Assembly (NCBI GenBank): GCA_950295325.1
Contig: OX485803.1
Span: 51,165,554-51,229,553 of the forward strand
Length of the DNA stretch: 64,000 bases
Reading direction: 5' to 3'
Source: Polytrichum commune
Lineage: Eukaryota > Streptophyta > Polytrichopsida > Polytrichales > Polytrichaceae
A program made the translations under genes and the position numbers. Of the stretch, positions 53,681-63,200 are shown in pieces (position 1 is the first letter of the stretch; every line of letters starts with the position of its first letter). The notes below the pieces were generated by a model, which saw nothing but the letters and a program-made list of their open reading frames with translations, did not search any database and was not told the DNA's origin.

Positions 53681-53717
53681 AACAGGTAACTGGAAGCTCT
53701 GAGGGTTTTAAGTAGCC

Positions 53718-56700
53718 ATGGCTATGTCAGCGGCGGCACAATGGCTGCAGCAAGCTCTACTAGATCTCTGTTCTGATTCGCATGCCGCCCTCCAGCTTGA
53801 CCCTGAGGTAGTAAGCAGCCTAGTTTCCTATTGCGAAATTGCACCACCGGATGATGCGCAGCAATATCTCTTTGTAAGTCATTTCCCCTTTTATGATGGT
53901 TGTAACTTTTAGAACATTTGTAGTGAGTTTGCATGGCCATCATTTTCATGAGAACCATAGGGTTCCTCACAACATGTATCTAAAAATGATTGTAGGTTTC
54001 TCATATCATTTCTATCTATCTTTAAGATCACAATGATGTGTACAAGTTTGTTCACTTCAGCTCTTTTTGGACATTAGGGTGCGCTTGGCCAGGATTGGTC
54101 AAACTGGCCTTACTTACTGTTGACTTTGGATGTTATTGATTGGCCCCATTTCTAAGATCCTGATGAGATTGTTCTGCACATAGTTGCTCCCTCAACATAG
54201 TGCTTGTCAAGAAGAAATTTTCTCTCGAAGCATGTTCTTGGTTCATAAACTCACGAGTTCCTCATATAAATTCTCAGCTACTGTGTCTAGTCTTCATAGG
54301 TGAAGTGCTTTACCTTGTCGCATTTAACTGTCTATGTCTTTATATTCTGCTGGAAGCTTATTCTCTTGCCCATGATGCTTGAAGGTGTGGCAACTGAAAA
54401 TCTTTGAGACACTCAATTCTGATGAGATCTTCATTGAAATATCTGGAGGAACAAGCAAATGAGAAATGTAGGTAATAACCAATGTTGGACCGGTATATAG
54501 GTGAATGCATGGTATCAATAATCAACGTCAACAATGCTGTCAAAGAACCTACCATGGGTATCAAAATTGTTATACCAATCAAATATTGATATTTGGTGGG
54601 TATGTCAAAGGTGAGAGAATCTTTGTATACCCGAGGTATTATTTGGGTCAATACCATTCTAAACCAAGGGTGTTTTTGCCTAGATATGAAAGTTCTTGCA
54701 TGGTATACAAACCCAAATGATATCAAACCAAAAATACCATCAAATACCCATACCTTACTAGTATCAAAAGTGTGAAACCCTCAGTATAGATACCCAAATG
54801 GTACAAAAAAGAAGACGATACCAGTCCAACACTGGTAATAACCTGTATAGTAGTATCAAGTATGATGGACATGCTGCTTGAAGTAAGGTAGGCATACATG
54901 GGCAGGGTTTAAAAGTGAATATCGACTGTTTGTTGAAGTACCATTTGCCAGTTTTCATTGTATAACACATGCAGAGTGCTATGATCTGCAGAGCATTGTT
55001 GGTGAGGAGCAAAGTAAGCATATTGTAACTGAATACCTTCAAAGAAGAGGTGATGGGTTGCCTAATGACTTGTTTACATTTCAAGACCGTGAAGTGGAGG
55101 CTCAGGGAGAGATGGGCTTGCATGCCTATGTGAAACCAAGAGAGGATGAGATATGGTCAGCTGGGAGAAAAGCCCCTAAACCTGTGAAGCAGAAGACAAG
55201 CAATCAAGATGTTCAGGGAAGCGTGTCTTTGAGCACACAACGTAAGCCTCATTGATACAGCCCTAGTTATTGCAGAACTTCAAGTTCCAACTTGTACGTA
55301 TAGAGGGACTCGAACCCCCACAAACATTATGGTTACCAGAACCTAAACCTGGCATGTCTACCAATTAATAGTGAGAAGTTGCATATGTGATCAAACACAC
55401 AGAAGTGGATGATGGTGCACTAATGTGCTTGAACGGTTTGTAATGTGCAAGAGCTCCTCTAGTTAACTTGAACAAGCATAAGATCAATTTGACAACCCTA
55501 GGTGAAAGTTAGCCATGCTTTTCACAGTTTCACTTTTACATAGCATTTTGGAACTGATAGTTGGGATTTTTAAGACATCCTGGTGGTTCAAGATTTTACA
55601 CCAGGATTCCCTGGTAATTTTACATCCAGGTAGTTAAAATTCCCTGCAAGTGAAAGGGAAGTATTGGAAATTGGTGTCATCTGCAATGAGTTGGCAGCTT
55701 TGAGTACAACAAATTTCCCTTATTCTGAGTTTCAAAGTATGTGTGTGTTCCTTCTACTGGATATAAAATTATCTCAATTTTAATAGGAATGTCCAGGTTC
55801 TGTCATTTTTGGGTGGAGATTCTGTTGTATATGACATCTTTCTACTTCTTGTTACATGTTGTTTGTATTGATCTTTAGTTTGCTGCAATGTTTGTATCTG
55901 GCAGCTACAAAAGCAGGACTGCCAAACTCAAATAGGCCAGGGAAGACGAAGGGGCGGAAAGGTGGCAAAGGGATTTCTCTAGCTGAGGCAGCTGAAGGTC
56001 TGGCGTTATTCCCCCGAGGAGGACCCTGCAACTGCCAAGCTAGCAGGCACAAGCTTGTTAACAACTGCCTTGGGTGTGGAAAAATTGTATGTGAGCAAGA
56101 AGGAGAGGGCCCCTGCAAATTCTGTGGGGCGCTAGTTTTGAAAGAAGGAAGTGATTATGCAGGTCTGGAAGGAATCAGTATTCCTCCTGCAAATGAAGCT
56201 GAGGCAGCTGCTCAGGCTTTTAAGGACCGGTTAGTGGAATTTGATCGGTCAGCTGCACAACGTACTACAGTCATTGATGATCAAAGCGATTATTTTGAAA
56301 TTGATGGAAATGCATGGCTCTCTGACAAGGTGCGGTATCACATTGGTGGGCCTCTCATACCAAGTTCGGAGAATGTCTATCTAGGAATCTTTCTCATTGT
56401 AAAGTTCTGTTGCGCTTTTGTCCAGTATAGCACTTGCATGGTCCTATCATTCACAACCTAATTTTTGAAATGGATTCTCACAGCTTAAGAATTGTTAAAT
56501 TTTCTATTGTGCTATAAGCAAGTAGTAGGCGTGGTCTGGATTATGTGCAGGAAAAGCAATTGCTGCGTAAACGGCAGGAGGAGGAAGAGCGGGCAGAAGA
56601 AGAAAGGAGAAAACGTGTGGTTGTCACCATTGATCTTCTTGGCCGCAAGGTATTGGAAGGTGTCTTTTCCCCTGGTGGTTAGATTTTTGGCCATTTCCAG

Positions 56701-58750
56701 CGAGATTTTTGATGTGAGGTCCTATTTCTTTGTGCTGCATGTACCAAGATTAAATGTCCATAATGTTGAATATGTTTTTCTTTGGTAAAATTGAAGTTCT
56801 TATGCTGTTGTGTACAAGGTTTCAGTACATGCCTTTGTTCTTCTGTTTCTCACTGTTGGAACCTGCTGGAGTGGGTGAAGATATAATTCCTTCAAAATTG
56901 GTGATATATGATCACAATTGCAAGGACAACACATGCCAGCAAACCTTTCTCCCACTAATTCTCTGGTGTGGGTGCTTTGCCAGGTTGTTATGGCTGATAA
57001 AGGGAACGGAAAAGAGAATGTTCCCCATGAGAACCTTATGTTGGCAGGAGATCCTTTGGAAGATTCTGGAGGTTCTGTTTATCGAATTAAGCCTAACCCC
57101 TTTGTCTCAAACACTCCTATCTATGTGGGACCTAAGGGGCCAACGAGCACCAAAAACACTAAGAATATCATTAACCATCTTCAAGGCATGATTCTAGACA
57201 AAACAGGGCGAGTGCAGCATGATGATCCAGTAATTGAAGCTGTGATAGGCCAGCAATTGGGGGACCTTCATGTTGATGGTGATGATAGAGATTTAAAGAC
57301 AGGTTGGCAGGGACCTATGGTCAGGGCGAGGGGACACTCAATGGATGATGAACCAGAGTGTATTTCTGATATGTCTAATTCAAATATCAGTGCATCAAAG
57401 CATCAAAGTCAGAGACAGGGAGCTGGGGTGATGAAATCCTCCAGTAAGTCAGGCTCTAAAGCGGAAGATGCAACTGTAGCAATGGCAAATTTTTTTGACA
57501 TCTGTCCTCCAGGGAATCCTCGTGAAGATGGGAAGAAAGCGATAGTCCTTGCACCCTCTCTTTTGACCCAAAAGCTTGCTGAACGTGCAGAGACATCTGC
57601 TTATGCATCTATATGGAGTGACACTTTATTGATGCCGGGTATGGTATTGCTCAAAGGCTGGCTGTCTATGGATGATCAGGTGCTTGCACTTTTCTCATTT
57701 CAATCTTCTGGTTGAGCTGATACTTTTTGCCTGATAAATGCCTCTTGAACCTCCAGGAGCTTGTTTCATGGATTCTACTTGGCTACCTCAAATTGTAACT
57801 AGGGAAGTCCTCTGATACTTGAGACAATAAACATAACTTCATGCAAATTTAAGAGTACTAGTTTATTCATCTTGGAAAATCATTCTCCAATAAATTTTCT
57901 TGATGCAGGTGGAGATTGTTCGGGAATGTCGATCGCTCGGCACAGGTGTTGGGGGCTTTTATCAACCCACTTTTGGAGATGGCAAGCACCTGCACCTGCA
58001 GATGATGTGTCTTGGAAATAAACACTGGGAACCTACCACTGGTTCTTATATATCTAGCCGATCATATTATGACAATGCCAATCCACCCCCCATACCTTCT
58101 AAGTTTTCAGCTATGGTAAAGGCCTCACTTCAAAAAGCACAGAACCTGGCTCTCAAGGCTGGAGGGTGCAAGCTTGGTCGTACAACTGTGGACGGGGAGC
58201 TGCCAGACTTGGACCCAAATGTCTGTATTGTTAACTTCTATGAGCAAAGCGGATCACTTGGCATGCATCAGGTACTTGCATATCAGACATGACACAATTG
58301 ATTAATTTGTGTACATGAACATAAATGAGGAAAATGGAGCACTTGAATATAGGATCTATTTTGGTTAAGCAAACATACAAGCAGTGAATTTTGTGTCCAA
58401 CAGCCATTTGTGTTAGTCATACCCAATTTTAACCATTTGAACTCATGGGGCTTTTTTGGCATTTGTTTCCTCAGGACAAAGATGAGAGCTCAGATAGCCT
58501 GAAGCGAGGGATCCCTGTAGTGTCATTTTCAATTGGTGATTCTGCAGAGTTTTGCTATGGCAAAGAGAGAGACCTTGAGAAATCTGAGAAGGTGCTGCTT
58601 GAGTCAGGGGATATTCTTGTCTTTGGTGGGCCTGCACGCATGATCTTCCATTCTGTCACATCCATAATTCCAAAGTCTGCCCCAAAGGAGCTCATTGACA
58701 GGACGAATTTGCGGCCAGGCAGGTTGAATCTCACCTTCAGGGCGCTATGA
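53718..58750 (+). CDS. ASC-1/TRIP4 zinc finger fused to AlkB dioxygenase
   Basis: Seven-exon model: 53,718-53,873, 54,992-55,241, 55,905-56,329, 56,551-56,649, 56,984-57,679, 57,909-58,271 and 58,475-58,750. Every junction is GT-AG and the phases fit, giving 754 residues. The start is fixed by an in-frame TAA 9 bases upstream and a CCATGGC context. In order: a TRIP4 N-terminal region with EYLQRRG (66-72); a C2HC5 zinc finger (C177, C179, H184, C190, C193, C198, C206, C209); a charged helix, then VVVTIDLLGRK (300-310); the TRIP4 tail motifs IKPNP and GRVQHD (345-390). A Ser-rich linker leads to a plant-type AlkB domain (about 475-754) with FDIC, GFYQP, iron ligands H662, D664 and H722, and 2-oxoglutarate-binding R746 with R752. 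TRIP4 belongs to the ASCC coactivator/helicase complex; AlkB enzymes oxidatively demethylate nucleic acids. The whole is probably a nuclear repair or RNA/DNA demethylation factor (inferred). No ASCH domain is present. The exon 3 donor (GTGCGG) is the weakest site. Confidence 0.9.
54480..54834. mobile_element. hAT-type MITE in intron 1 of the ASC-1/AlkB gene
   Basis: The left end CAATGTTGGACCGGTAT and the right end, read inward, CAGTGTTGGACTGGTAT form the inverted ends. A perfect 8-bp duplication GTAATAAC occurs at 54,472-54,479 and 54,835-54,842. 355 bp, non-coding. The antisense open frame 54,358-54,726 is an artefact of it. Confidence 0.92.
55298..55376 (-). pseudogene. Organelle-type tRNA-Leu(UAG) relic in intron 2
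   Basis: On the minus strand the sequence holds AATTGGTAGACATGCC (D-arm of bacterial/organelle tRNA-Leu), then an anticodon arm CCAGG-TTTAGGT-TCTGG with anticodon TAG, a long variable region, and a T-arm GGGGGTTCGAGTCCCTC. The GGTAGAC D-loop distinguishes it from nuclear tRNA-Leu. The 5' acceptor side does not pair with the 3' side, so it is decayed. It was probably copied from mitochondrial or chloroplast DNA, and I cannot decide which. It lies between exons 2 and 3 of the ASC-1/AlkB gene, on the opposite strand. Confidence 0.7.
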
Positions 58751-59734: not shown

Positions 59735-62700
59735 TTATGATGAGCTCTGTCGAACGTCGTAGGGTATCATTGCACCTAGGTAGCCGAGAATCTCAACATT
59801 TGATTGCTTGCTTGGGGGAATTAACACATGATGAGATTCCATTGCTGCCCTTGAGCTTTCGCCCACCATTTGAATGGGTGCTGGGGATACTCCACTATTA
59901 GCTGCTATGAGGCCCTGGAAGTGCCGATTGAACGTGTGCTGGAGCCTGATTTGCTGGTGATCATTTATGCTGTTGCTGCCATGGTCTGCTGGAAGAACAG
60001 GTCTCCAGCCCAGGTTTGGCTCATGGGTAGGTGGTGGACCTTGCTGGTGGCTTGCCCGGGCTTCTTCTGAGAGGAACTCTTCCCAAAAGCTTGGGTCTGA
60101 GTCTAGAAGCCCACAGACAGGACCTAAACCCGGGAGCACAAGACTGGGTTCATGGATCTCCGGTAAGGATGCCAGCACCTGCATGAGAATATACAACTAG
60201 AAGCATTAATTCTCTTTCCTATAGATTTTTCTTTTTCTAAATTAGAAGGAGAGATGACTCTGATGTTGCCACTGGAGTGAATTATGGTGTTGCTTCATCT
60301 TCAAGTTGGTCTAAGTCTATATGTACTCCCAAAATGGGCATCACAAGAATTAGAGGGTCCTCCAAAGGCTACTACACTAACTATGATATTTTAGTGTCAC
60401 CGATTCTAATTGTCTTGCTGAATATTAATTGTAAACCGTGATATAATGTCACCAACACTAAATGTTAACCCAACATTATTTGTCATCCCTTGTAAATGTT
60501 TTGGGACATTATAGATTTACAGTGTTGTAATTACTGTCACTTTCATCCAAATTTTAATCATCCATGACAATATTTCATCACAATTGGCTGATAAGAGAAG
60601 GTAGGGTGTTGGCCAATGAATGAACTCATCCAAGATCCATGACAGTATTTGTGAACTTATTCATAAGAAGTGTCATCTGCTAAGTTACGATAGTGACATC
60701 AAATACCATATGACACTAGTGTCATATTAAGTGCAGCTCCTTTCAAAGGGTGAACATTTCCAATGGGCGTGGACAAGCTGGCTTGCACCTATCTCCTCAA
60801 AGAGCAAGCCCCTAAATTCTCACATGGTTGGTTGGTTCACCTAGATAGCCCCACTATGATTGGGTGGACCATAGCTGTTAGGGTGCATCAGAAATCCAAA
60901 TCCTAGGAAGGTCACCCATCTTAGTACTATTTTGACCTTAGACAGCTTAACCTCGGAGTTCCCATGGGATGTGGGTGAAGGCCTTGCTTGATGCTTCTAA
61001 GATCTTTCACAAAGCGCCTAAGAAAGAAGACATTGAGAGGAATTTATCATTGGTACCTTTTGTGTTTGAATTAAAAGACGTTTTCACATTTATATACCAA
61101 TGTTTTGAGAATGATTATAACCACTTTTCCTAAACCGGGTCACCATCCAGATCCCCTAGTATTTTCTACTTAATTTTGTTTTTGGTGGGTCTTAACCACC
61201 TAATAATACAAAAGCAGGTCCAAAATAAGGCTTCTTAAAAATGTTTTACCAGCTCCAAACACTGTTTTCAAGACGATATGACGCCTGCGGGCGCTCGAGA
61301 TAGTTGCTGGGCATTAACCATAGTTTCAAATCCTATCTTCTTGAATTGTGCTAAGTAGAGATGTATTTTCTCAGGTTAGGAACAGATTTGAGACATGGAA
61401 TCAGTGAAACAGAAGCATTGAGCACACCCCTCAGATTGGATCACGTAAATCATAGCAAGTGGCTAAAACTCACCTCCTCAACGCAGGAGCTGTTGTGCTC
61501 CTTGCCAATCCTTTGTGCACTGGTGTTCTTTTTGAATATTCGACAAAGCACCCAGTCATCTAGCTGCGATGCACAAGCCAGCTCAAGGTTAATTAGTCTT
61601 GCAATCTACAGTTCAGAGCAAAGTCTGTGAACAGACAGGAGAGATGACACCTGGTTTGACTTGAATGATCTGTTGACACAACAGTGATCTTTCCTCATGT
61701 ACAGTAGTGCTGCATGTCAGTGTACCATGAATACTACGATGAGACATGACTTGGAGTTGCAAGTTCATTGCATGAATAGGTGGGAGTTGAAGTTAAATGC
61801 CGAAGATGCCTTTTGTTATGAGGACATTCTTGACAACTTTGACGCTCTATGGGATCAGGCCAACAACTTGTTCTTGTCTGATCCAACTCCAAGATTACTT
61901 GGAACGTCACCAAGTCGCCTTTTGTTTTGCTAGCTTACTTGAGCCCCCTCTCCTCTCTCTATTTTGGTTGCCAGTGGCCTTGTATCATTTTTGACGGTGA
62001 TTTTTTTTTTTTTGAAATTTTCCCTCCAAATTGACCATCATAACATTCTTTTGCTTCCTCTCTAGTGACCCATTTTATTGTATGAGCTAATAATACCAGC
62101 ACGTCATTAATCAATGGATTATTCTTGAATCTAGACGCTCGGAGACTAAGCAAGTCTATTTTCTCAAAAATTCACAAAGTCAAGTTACGCCACTTGTACC
62201 TACTCCAATCTACACCAGGCTGCATGCGTCCTTAGAACCCACATTCTGACCAAAGATTGAATGAACATATTAAAGTTTCGTGCATCTTTTTTCCTCACCA
62301 AGAAGGACCTGTTTGATGACATTGGTGAGGAAATGTTATGGACTATGTAACTGATGAGAGCAGAGTCGACCACAAGCTACGATAGCAATGAGACATTCAT
62401 CCACTCGAGCCACATGTAAGACATAACCAATCTACTCTTGGACAAAAACTAAAAATTCTGGATGAAATGTTTTATATGTGGACCAAAAAACACAAGAAAG
62501 TCGTTGAAAGTGTTGGCTACTATTATAGAGGTGGGAGATTTGTGACGAAATGTGTTTCTTCTTTCGTTCATTCTTTTTTTTTTTTTGAAGGGAGAGGTTG
62601 TCCTACTCACTCTCAATGAGCCTCGCCGCCTTTGCACTTGTGTATTGGAGGAGCAAATGCCATCGGCCAAGCGATACTCATGCATCACCCAACTTGTCTT

Positions 62701-62912
62701 CACACCCTTGGGGGCGCGGCCCTTGTAGAAGACGAGGGCTTTCTTCACACCAATCTTGTGCATTGTCCCATGTGACGTGTGCACTGGTCGGTCAGTGCCT
62801 GTCGCCTTCCAATACCCGGATGCAGCTGCTCGGTTAGGCCTAGCTCCATTGGGGTATTTTCTGTCCCGGGGGCTGAAGAAATACCATTCACCTTCTCCAA
62901 AAATGGCCTTCC
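59735..62912 (-). CDS. NAC-domain transcription factor, 5' exon missing
   Basis: Exons read on the minus strand are 62,912-62,611, 61,563-61,474 and 60,178-59,735, giving 277 complete residues plus a split codon. Donors GTGAGT at both internal ends, TTGCAG, CGCAG and TGCAG acceptors, and matching phases (1, 0, 0) support the model; the first two introns sit where plant NAC genes usually have them. Exon 2 encodes NAC subdomains C-D, with [27 protein letters not shown] and a [14 protein letters not shown] stretch ending WVMHEYRL. Exon 3 encodes subdomain [13 protein letters not shown]. Exon 4 is the variable C-terminal regulatory region, with an acidic-aromatic [16 protein letters not shown] proteins bind CGTG/CACG-core DNA as dimers in the nucleus. 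[17 protein letters not shown] is typical of ATAF/NAP-like NACs. Exon 1 (subdomains A-B) is not found up to 64,000, so the gene either continues outside or has lost it. Confidence 0.88.
60255..60930 (+). repeat. Dispersed repeat Q in NAC intron 3, split by an insertion
   Basis: The outer parts (60,255-60,370 and 60,740-60,930) match 42,345-42,700, which is uninterrupted. They lie within the intron between NAC exons 3 and 4. Confidence 0.7.
60372..60739 (+). mobile_element. Insertion in repeat Q, 'TTTAGTGTCACC' family copy 2
   Basis: It aligns with 783-1,130 (TTTAGTGTCACCGATTCT, TTGTCATCCCTTGTAAAT, AATACCATATGACACTAG). Comparison with the empty copy of Q places its edges to within a few bases. 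Left CTACACTAACTATGATATT and right, read inward, CTGCACTTAATATGACACT are weak inverted ends. Confidence 0.7.
61564..62610 (-). other. NAC intron 2
   Basis: This 1,047-bp intron holds T-rich tracts at 61,999-62,011 and 62,576-62,586. The open frame 61,697-61,933 on the plus strand has no recognisable domain. Confidence 0.6.
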
Positions 62913-62929
62913 CTGCAACACAATGTTCA

Positions 62930-63200
62930 GATAGGTAAGGTAGGTATGGGGGTCTTATGTGGTCACTCTTCTCAAACGGACACCTATATTTGAGTGGTAT
63001 ATGGCAAGGCTTGTAGTCATGAACAGACACCTAAATAGCATTACGTGTTACGATATAATTTGACCATGTGCACAAAAATATAGACATCATTCTAGGTTCT
63101 ATAGGGAACATCACAATTGAGAGGGCCTACGTGATCACTTAAAGGGAAAGACAATCTTCACTTGGGGCTCTTTATTTCTTTTACATATCTCTACTTAGAT
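62930..63200 (+). repeat. 'GGACACCTATATTTGAGTG' repeat in NAC intron 1, copy 1
   Basis: GGTAAGGTAGGTATGGGGGTCTTATGTGG leads into CGGACACCTATATTTGAGTGGTATATGGC. The same order of blocks recurs at 63,661-64,000 and at 17,720. Confidence 0.6.

Follow-up and report, generated by a model that had tools for sequence, protein, structure and literature searches.

The question raised by the locus at 53718-58750 on the forward strand of a 64,000-nucleotide stretch of the Polytrichum commune genome (contig OX485803.1, positions 51,165,554 to 51,229,553; hereafter the window) is whether one moss gene unites a TRIP4-type protein with an AlkB dioxygenase, and what such a protein would do. TRIP4 belongs to the complex ASCC, whose work is to unwind nucleic acid and to split ribosomes that have stalled, and its docking half is joined here to a putative demethylase of the AlkB family. 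It is proposed, as a probable but by no means assured answer, that a single gene encodes a TRIP4-type ASCC subunit carrying a bacterial-type AlkB dioxygenase in the place of the ASCH domain, with the zinc finger docking on the ASCC3 helicase and the AlkB domain repairing the strands that leave it.

The fused gene model is confirmed as observed: seven exons separated by six GT-AG introns join into one predicted protein of 759 residues, all 759 codons being free of stops. The first ATG is preceded by an in-frame TAA at 53709-53711, and the terminal TGA is at 58748-58750; introns 1, 3, 4, 5 and 6 are in phase 0 and intron 2 is in phase 1. The parts of the gene, in window coordinates, are as follows.

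53718..58750, + strand: whole coding span, seven exons, 759 residues (predicted exon join)
53718..53873, + strand: exon 1, residues 1-52, N-terminal region, with no significant match to Pfam families or, pairwise, to TRIP4
54977..55241, + strand: exon 2, residues 53-140 plus the first base of codon 141
55905..56329, + strand: exon 3, up to residue 282, zinc finger and beginning of TRIP4_3rd (Pfam and genome profile matches)
56024..56146, + strand: zf-C2HC5 match, eight ligands C182-C214 inside residues 181-220 (genome profile match and Pfam)
56551..56649, + strand: exon 4, residues 283-315, bulk of TRIP4_3rd (Pfam and genome profile matches)
56984..57679, + strand: exon 5, residues 316-547, end of TRIP4_3rd, linker and start of AlkB, joining both halves (Pfam, reading-frame and codon tests)
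57909..58271, + strand: exon 6, residues 548-668, AlkB core with W587, Y594 and iron ligand H667 (alignments)
58475..58750, + strand: exon 7, residues 669-759 and TGA, iron ligands D669 and H727, arginines R751 and R757 (alignments)

A Pfam search of the protein at E <= 0.001 gave three families, each above its own cut-off, in the order zf-C2HC5 (PF06221; residues 181-220, 5.5e-12, 45.9 bits against a cut-off of 25.8), TRIP4_3rd (PF23134; residues 266-318, 3.9e-20, 72.4 bits against a cut-off of 27.7) and 2OG-FeII_Oxy_2 (residues 534-757, 3.3e-44). The 25 PDB sequences matched at E <= 1 include rice 5xeg (7.8e-75), human TRIP4 8alz (1.4e-31), E. coli AlkB (2e-13), yeast RQT4 (5.1e-10) and human ALKBH1 (9.1e-8); two cytochrome sequences (0.089 and 0.54) were discarded as noise. 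All eight zinc ligands (C182, C184, H189, C195, C198, C203, C211 and C214) align with those of human TRIP4, and the finger and TRIP4_3rd together score 324 against the human protein, a value reached by none of 1,000 shuffles (31.3 +/- 5.2). In human TRIP4 the zinc finger is the main ASCC3 dock, and the hydrophobic contact residues named for it are L174, L180 and I190 (PMC10076317); these align with Q185, L191 and I201 of the moss protein, so that two of the three are kept. With its eight ligands and these two contacts, the finger may serve as an ASCC3 dock. The moss protein thus has the eight-ligand C2HC5 finger and TRIP4_3rd in the same order as human TRIP4 (ASC-1; 8alz chain A) and differs from it in having AlkB instead of ASCH and in an N-terminus and lasso that pairwise tests do not recognise. 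No ASCH domain was found in the 759 residues by the Pfam search at E <= 0.001, and the pairwise score of the AlkB half against human TRIP4 ASCH was reached by 110 of 1,000 shuffles; as judged from domain order, the AlkB half occupies the place of ASCH in animal TRIP4. Scans for relatives of the TRIP4 half, seeded by residue patterns, gave none among 13 pattern stretches of viral contigs or among 101 of prokaryote genomes.

The AlkB half retains the iron triad H667, D669 and H727 and the two C-terminal arginines R751 and R757 (2-oxoglutarate). The preliminary description of this DNA had proposed a seven-exon gene here, which its GT-AG introns, stop-free codons and three Pfam domains bear out, together with a TRIP4-type C2HC5 finger with eight ligands, equally upheld by the alignment with the human protein; its complete AlkB dioxygenase has every residue named, but the numbers given (H662, D664, H722, R746 and R752) are five too low. 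The AlkB half shows 56% identity to rice 5xeg over 228 residues, 33.8% and 37.7% to two actinobacterial proteins (L025 and L026) over about 230 residues, and 25.9% to E. coli AlkB; these identities come from the matches listed in a BLAST set of 83 sequences, namely the best 80 of 499 prokaryote relatives, the moss protein, rice and E. coli. By this measure it is nearer to actinobacterial AlkB proteins than to that of E. coli. The 499 relatives came from 542 stretches in prokaryote genomes, and 79 of the best 80 are actinobacterial by title, the other being from Thermomicrobiales; this predominance is suggestive only, because exact eight-residue patterns, GMHQDKDE among them, were the starting points of the scan, which is hence biased. 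The corresponding scan of viral contigs gave a single relative, at 30% identity. The solved rice 2OG-Fe oxygenase chain 5xeg has the catalytic residues in common with the moss AlkB half and differs in being the AlkB domain alone (231 residues), and the actinobacterial proteins, compared over the AlkB domain of about 230 residues, carry the identical HQDKDE motif. Animal ALKBH1 was considered as the closest relative and rejected, human ALKBH1 (9.1e-8) standing behind both E. coli AlkB (2e-13) and rice 5xeg (7.8e-75). A multiple alignment was made of ten sequences (the moss protein, rice 5xeg, E. coli AlkB and seven of the 80 bacterial ones), in which HQDKDE, the second histidine, both arginines and W587 are common to all ten and Y594 is found in nine, L025 differing. 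W587 and Y594 align with W69 and Y76 of E. coli AlkB, which we take, numbering and role alike, to be the residues gripping the damaged base; their position therefore points to a repair-type active site, and the AlkB half is regarded as a putative demethylase.

Whether both halves belong to one protein turns on exon 5, an open frame of 696 nucleotides that extends without a break from the end of TRIP4_3rd to the beginning of AlkB. Of 51,304 sliding windows of 696 nucleotides (+ strand, first 52 kb of the window), not one was free of stops in the tested frame; the same holds for 20,000 shuffled versions of exon 5, and the codon score of the linker, trained on the rest of the fused gene, exceeds all 7,286 background windows tested. 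It could nevertheless be argued that the locus, whether it holds two genes or gives isoforms of one, makes two products: a TRIP4-like protein that stops after exon 4, and an AlkB protein starting at Met318. Read-through of exon 4 meets a stop at 56680-56682, and Met318 (56990) lies two codons within exon 5; these two features would allow TRIP4-only and AlkB-only products. The context of Met318 is presumably a good one for a plant start. One ATTAAA is present in intron 4, at 56749, and the TRIP4 similarity beyond residue 320 is not significant. Against such a division, the gap from stop to start would be only about 307 bases, intron 4 is without AATAAA, TATAAA or TATATA, the introns have canonical splice sites that keep the phase, the whole of exon 5 is coding, and Ginkgo has a reported fused gene model with a similar layout (PMC13296198); we judge two products to be improbable. 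Still less credible, to the point of being nearly dismissed, is an artefact of assembly or gene modelling that unites two unrelated loci. A single genome was examined, and the moss and ginkgo reports could derive from automatic gene models; one contig, however, carries all seven exons on the same strand and in the right sequence within 5 kb, the exon that joins the halves has one uninterrupted open frame, and similar layouts are on record in two other plants (PMC13296198, PMC6576107).

The whole genome (407.8 Mb in 64 contigs) was searched with profiles exon by exon, so that a missing match does not prove absence. The C2HC5 profile has one match genome-wide, in the fused gene, and TRIP4_3rd has two, both in the fused gene; ASCH has no genome match at E <= 0.001 in this search, a result that does not prove its absence. 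A tandem-helicase locus on contig C2 has a C-terminal-cassette fragment that matches human ASCC3 at 1.2e-24, yeast SLH1 at 1.3e-22 and the best Brr2-type helicase at 1.8e-14, and a second fragment for which ASCC3 is again best by a narrow margin (1.8e-20 against 6.1e-19); by these scores the locus is a putative ASCC3-like gene. An ASCC2-like CUE protein matches human ASCC2 2di0 at 6.1e-14 (locus L105, 433-1839, minus strand, at ~50.84 Mb of C1, the contig within which the window lies). The candidate for ASCC1, on C3, consists of two AKAP7_NLS exon matches only. As separate observations, the ASCC2-like gene and the fused gene share contig C1 at a distance of about 0.38 Mb, and two more Sec63-type helicase loci (C6:14366819-14371284 and C2:66155293-66155442) are perhaps Brr2-like and MER3-like. 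The AlkB profile has eight exon matches genome-wide, two from the fused gene and six distant; in tblastn against the fused AlkB half, five of these six give weak alignments (27-112 positions, 30-46% identity) and the sixth, L006, none at E <= 1. Searched with the whole protein, the genome gives the seven exons of the fused gene and one C-terminal match, at C6:8135321, which was considered as a second copy of the fused gene and rejected, the locus reading as a different AlkB gene. The AlkB-type gene at that locus (L007, 1-1700) is divergent, and its last exon shares 46% identity with the AlkB half of the fused protein over 56 positions.

The Arabidopsis gene AT3G47610 is, we assume, a TRIP4 homologue. 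Alternative poly(A) use and salt phenotypes are attributed to it in reviews (PMC10003127, PMC10536700). The layout of the moss protein, for which the preliminary description knew of no plant example, is already in print. In a 2026 family survey, the Ginkgo gene model GbALKBH1B, of 665 residues, is recorded with zf-C2HC5 as an extra domain, is predicted to be nuclear and is handled as an eraser of N6-methyladenosine (m6A) (PMC13296198). It resembles the moss protein in having AlkB and zf-C2HC5 within a single gene model and differs, as compared by description, in that the entry is set among the extra domains, the available part of the survey making no mention of TRIP4 or ASCC. For Physcomitrella, a 2019 review notes one zinc finger motif among the AlkBH proteins and suggests a transcription-factor role (PMC6576107); AlkB and a zinc finger are again found together, the differences from the moss protein described here being that the type of finger is left unstated in the part available and that another role is proposed. 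No paper linking the plant AlkB-zinc-finger layout to TRIP4 or ASCC was found among the matches listed, in which subscription journals are thinly covered, and such a paper may exist. The architecture has thus been printed before in passing, and in the texts found its meaning with respect to TRIP4 and ASCC was not drawn out.

The reading that we favour builds on the gene model, the domains, the catalytic residues, the sole C2HC5 and TRIP4_3rd matches of the genome and the putative ASCC3-like and ASCC2-like genes, all of them read from sequence. In the mechanism proposed, the C-terminal cassette of plant ASCC3 would be the docking site of the C2HC5 finger, the linker would span the surface taken by the lasso in the human complex, and the AlkB domain would be positioned near the nucleic-acid exit of the ASCC3 motor, where it could clear alkyl lesions, most likely of the 1-methyladenine or 3-methylcytosine type, from single strands unwound by the helicase. 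An alternative substrate would be the mRNA released when ASCC splits collided ribosomes, and mRNA is plausible because human cells deficient in ASCC3 are slower to remove 1-methyladenosine (m1A) and 3-methylcytidine (m3C) from it (PMC8254245). The ratio of demethylase to finger would be fixed at one to one, in contrast with human ALKBH3, which competes with TRIP4 for ASCC3. Since human TRIP4 and ALKBH3 are mutually exclusive on ASCC3 (PMC10076317), the fusion would couple what humans keep apart. ALKBH3 is likewise an AlkB enzyme linked to the ASCC3 helicase in repair (PMC10076317, PMC8254245), a linkage that in the moss would follow from the finger, and it differs in being a separate protein and a rival of TRIP4. 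The PDB holds structures of ALKBH3, and no chain of that name is among the 25 PDB sequences matched at E <= 1, so the AlkB half is considered not to be ALKBH3-like. The fused gene had been presented as a natural 'Rosetta stone' for the partnership of ASCC3 with ALKBH3; as a direct one for ALKBH3 it is not supported. The accompanying prediction that plant ASCC carries its own demethylase survives as a testable one, given the finger ligands and the two contacts kept; the analogy with ALKBH3 fails at the sequence level, and the earlier interpretation as a whole is partly supported.

Several points weigh against this proposal. The splicing of the seven-exon model is predicted from DNA only, and the contact residue L174 is replaced by Q185. 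The pairwise score of the N-terminus against that of human TRIP4 was reached by 194 of 1,000 shuffles, and that of the linker against the human lasso region by 563 of 1,000; at E <= 10, Pfam gave nothing above cut-off for residues 1-173 (only CRR7, 0.11, below its cut-off) and no match for the exon 5 piece, and the PDB gave no match to a 111-residue piece across the junction. Because the N-terminus and lasso are not recognised pairwise, similarity to TRIP4 is shown for about residues 166-320 only. A lasso-like stretch seen in the linker by eye (KPNP...P.YV against VNPN...P.WV) was tried as evidence for one gene and left unused, because it did not beat the shuffles. Human TRIP4 is dispensable for ASCC3-dependent alkylation repair (PMC10076317), which counts against a simple transfer of the human picture; yet the plant AlkB would sit in the TRIP4-type chain itself. 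Rice ALKBH1 (LOC_Os03g60190), which is not equated here with 5xeg, is described as a nuclear demethylase of N6-methyladenine (6mA) acting on single-stranded DNA, and ASCC is unmentioned in the available part of the report (PMC10469495). A rival reading accepts the fusion as real and sees in the protein a nuclear 6mA or m6A demethylase outside ASCC-coupled repair, whose finger binds nucleic acid or protein in some other way, in keeping with the transcription-factor remark on Physcomitrella (PMC6576107). It gains from the rice enzyme, from the predicted nuclear location and m6A-eraser treatment of GbALKBH1B (PMC13296198), from the lost L174 and from the dispensability of human TRIP4; it loses from the retention of all eight zinc ligands, two of the three ASCC3 contacts and TRIP4_3rd, and from the exon-by-exon search, which turned up no further TRIP4-type gene that could go with the ASCC3-like and ASCC2-like ones. 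We consider it unlikely, but a rival to be kept in view.

Other features of the window were also recorded. Intron 1 contains, at 54470-54860, a dispersed repeat of about 370 bases with, besides three partial matches, at least 39 other long ones, spread over seven contigs at 80-86% identity (40 of 3,107 first-look candidates were scored); an ungapped inverted repeat of at least 15 bases was looked for there and not found, and the repeat is probably a short transposon-derived element. The window holds 14 open frames of at least 130 residues, a survey that misses genes made of short exons; four lie within the exon region of the fused gene, and a Pfam search of six others gave one match, a NAC-family exon (NAM, PF02365, 2.1e-27) at 62452-63030 on the minus strand, convergent with the fused gene. 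The C-terminal exon of the NAC gene may be the open frame at 59738-60196, for which Pfam gave no match. Rfam gave no match at gathering score anywhere in the window.

In humans TRIP4 and ALKBH3 are mutually exclusive on ASCC3, which leaves unsettled how lesion repair and ribosome rescue are divided. A one-chain plant protein would offer a fixed, purifiable form of the partnership between ASCC and AlkB, and it gives a concrete reason to ask whether plant ASCC repairs alkylated mRNA or DNA. It also raises the question whether the zinc fingers of the moss and ginkgo AlkBH proteins are ASCC3 docks rather than transcription-factor fingers. More tentatively, a bacterial-type AlkB might have replaced the ASCH domain of TRIP4 in plants and so produced an ASCC that repairs nucleic acid just unwound or freed from ribosomes, a second and independent link between ASCC and a demethylase beside animal ALKBH3, without the competition between TRIP4 and ALKBH3. 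Judged from these sequences, a repair enzyme may in some plants have become a built-in part of ASCC.

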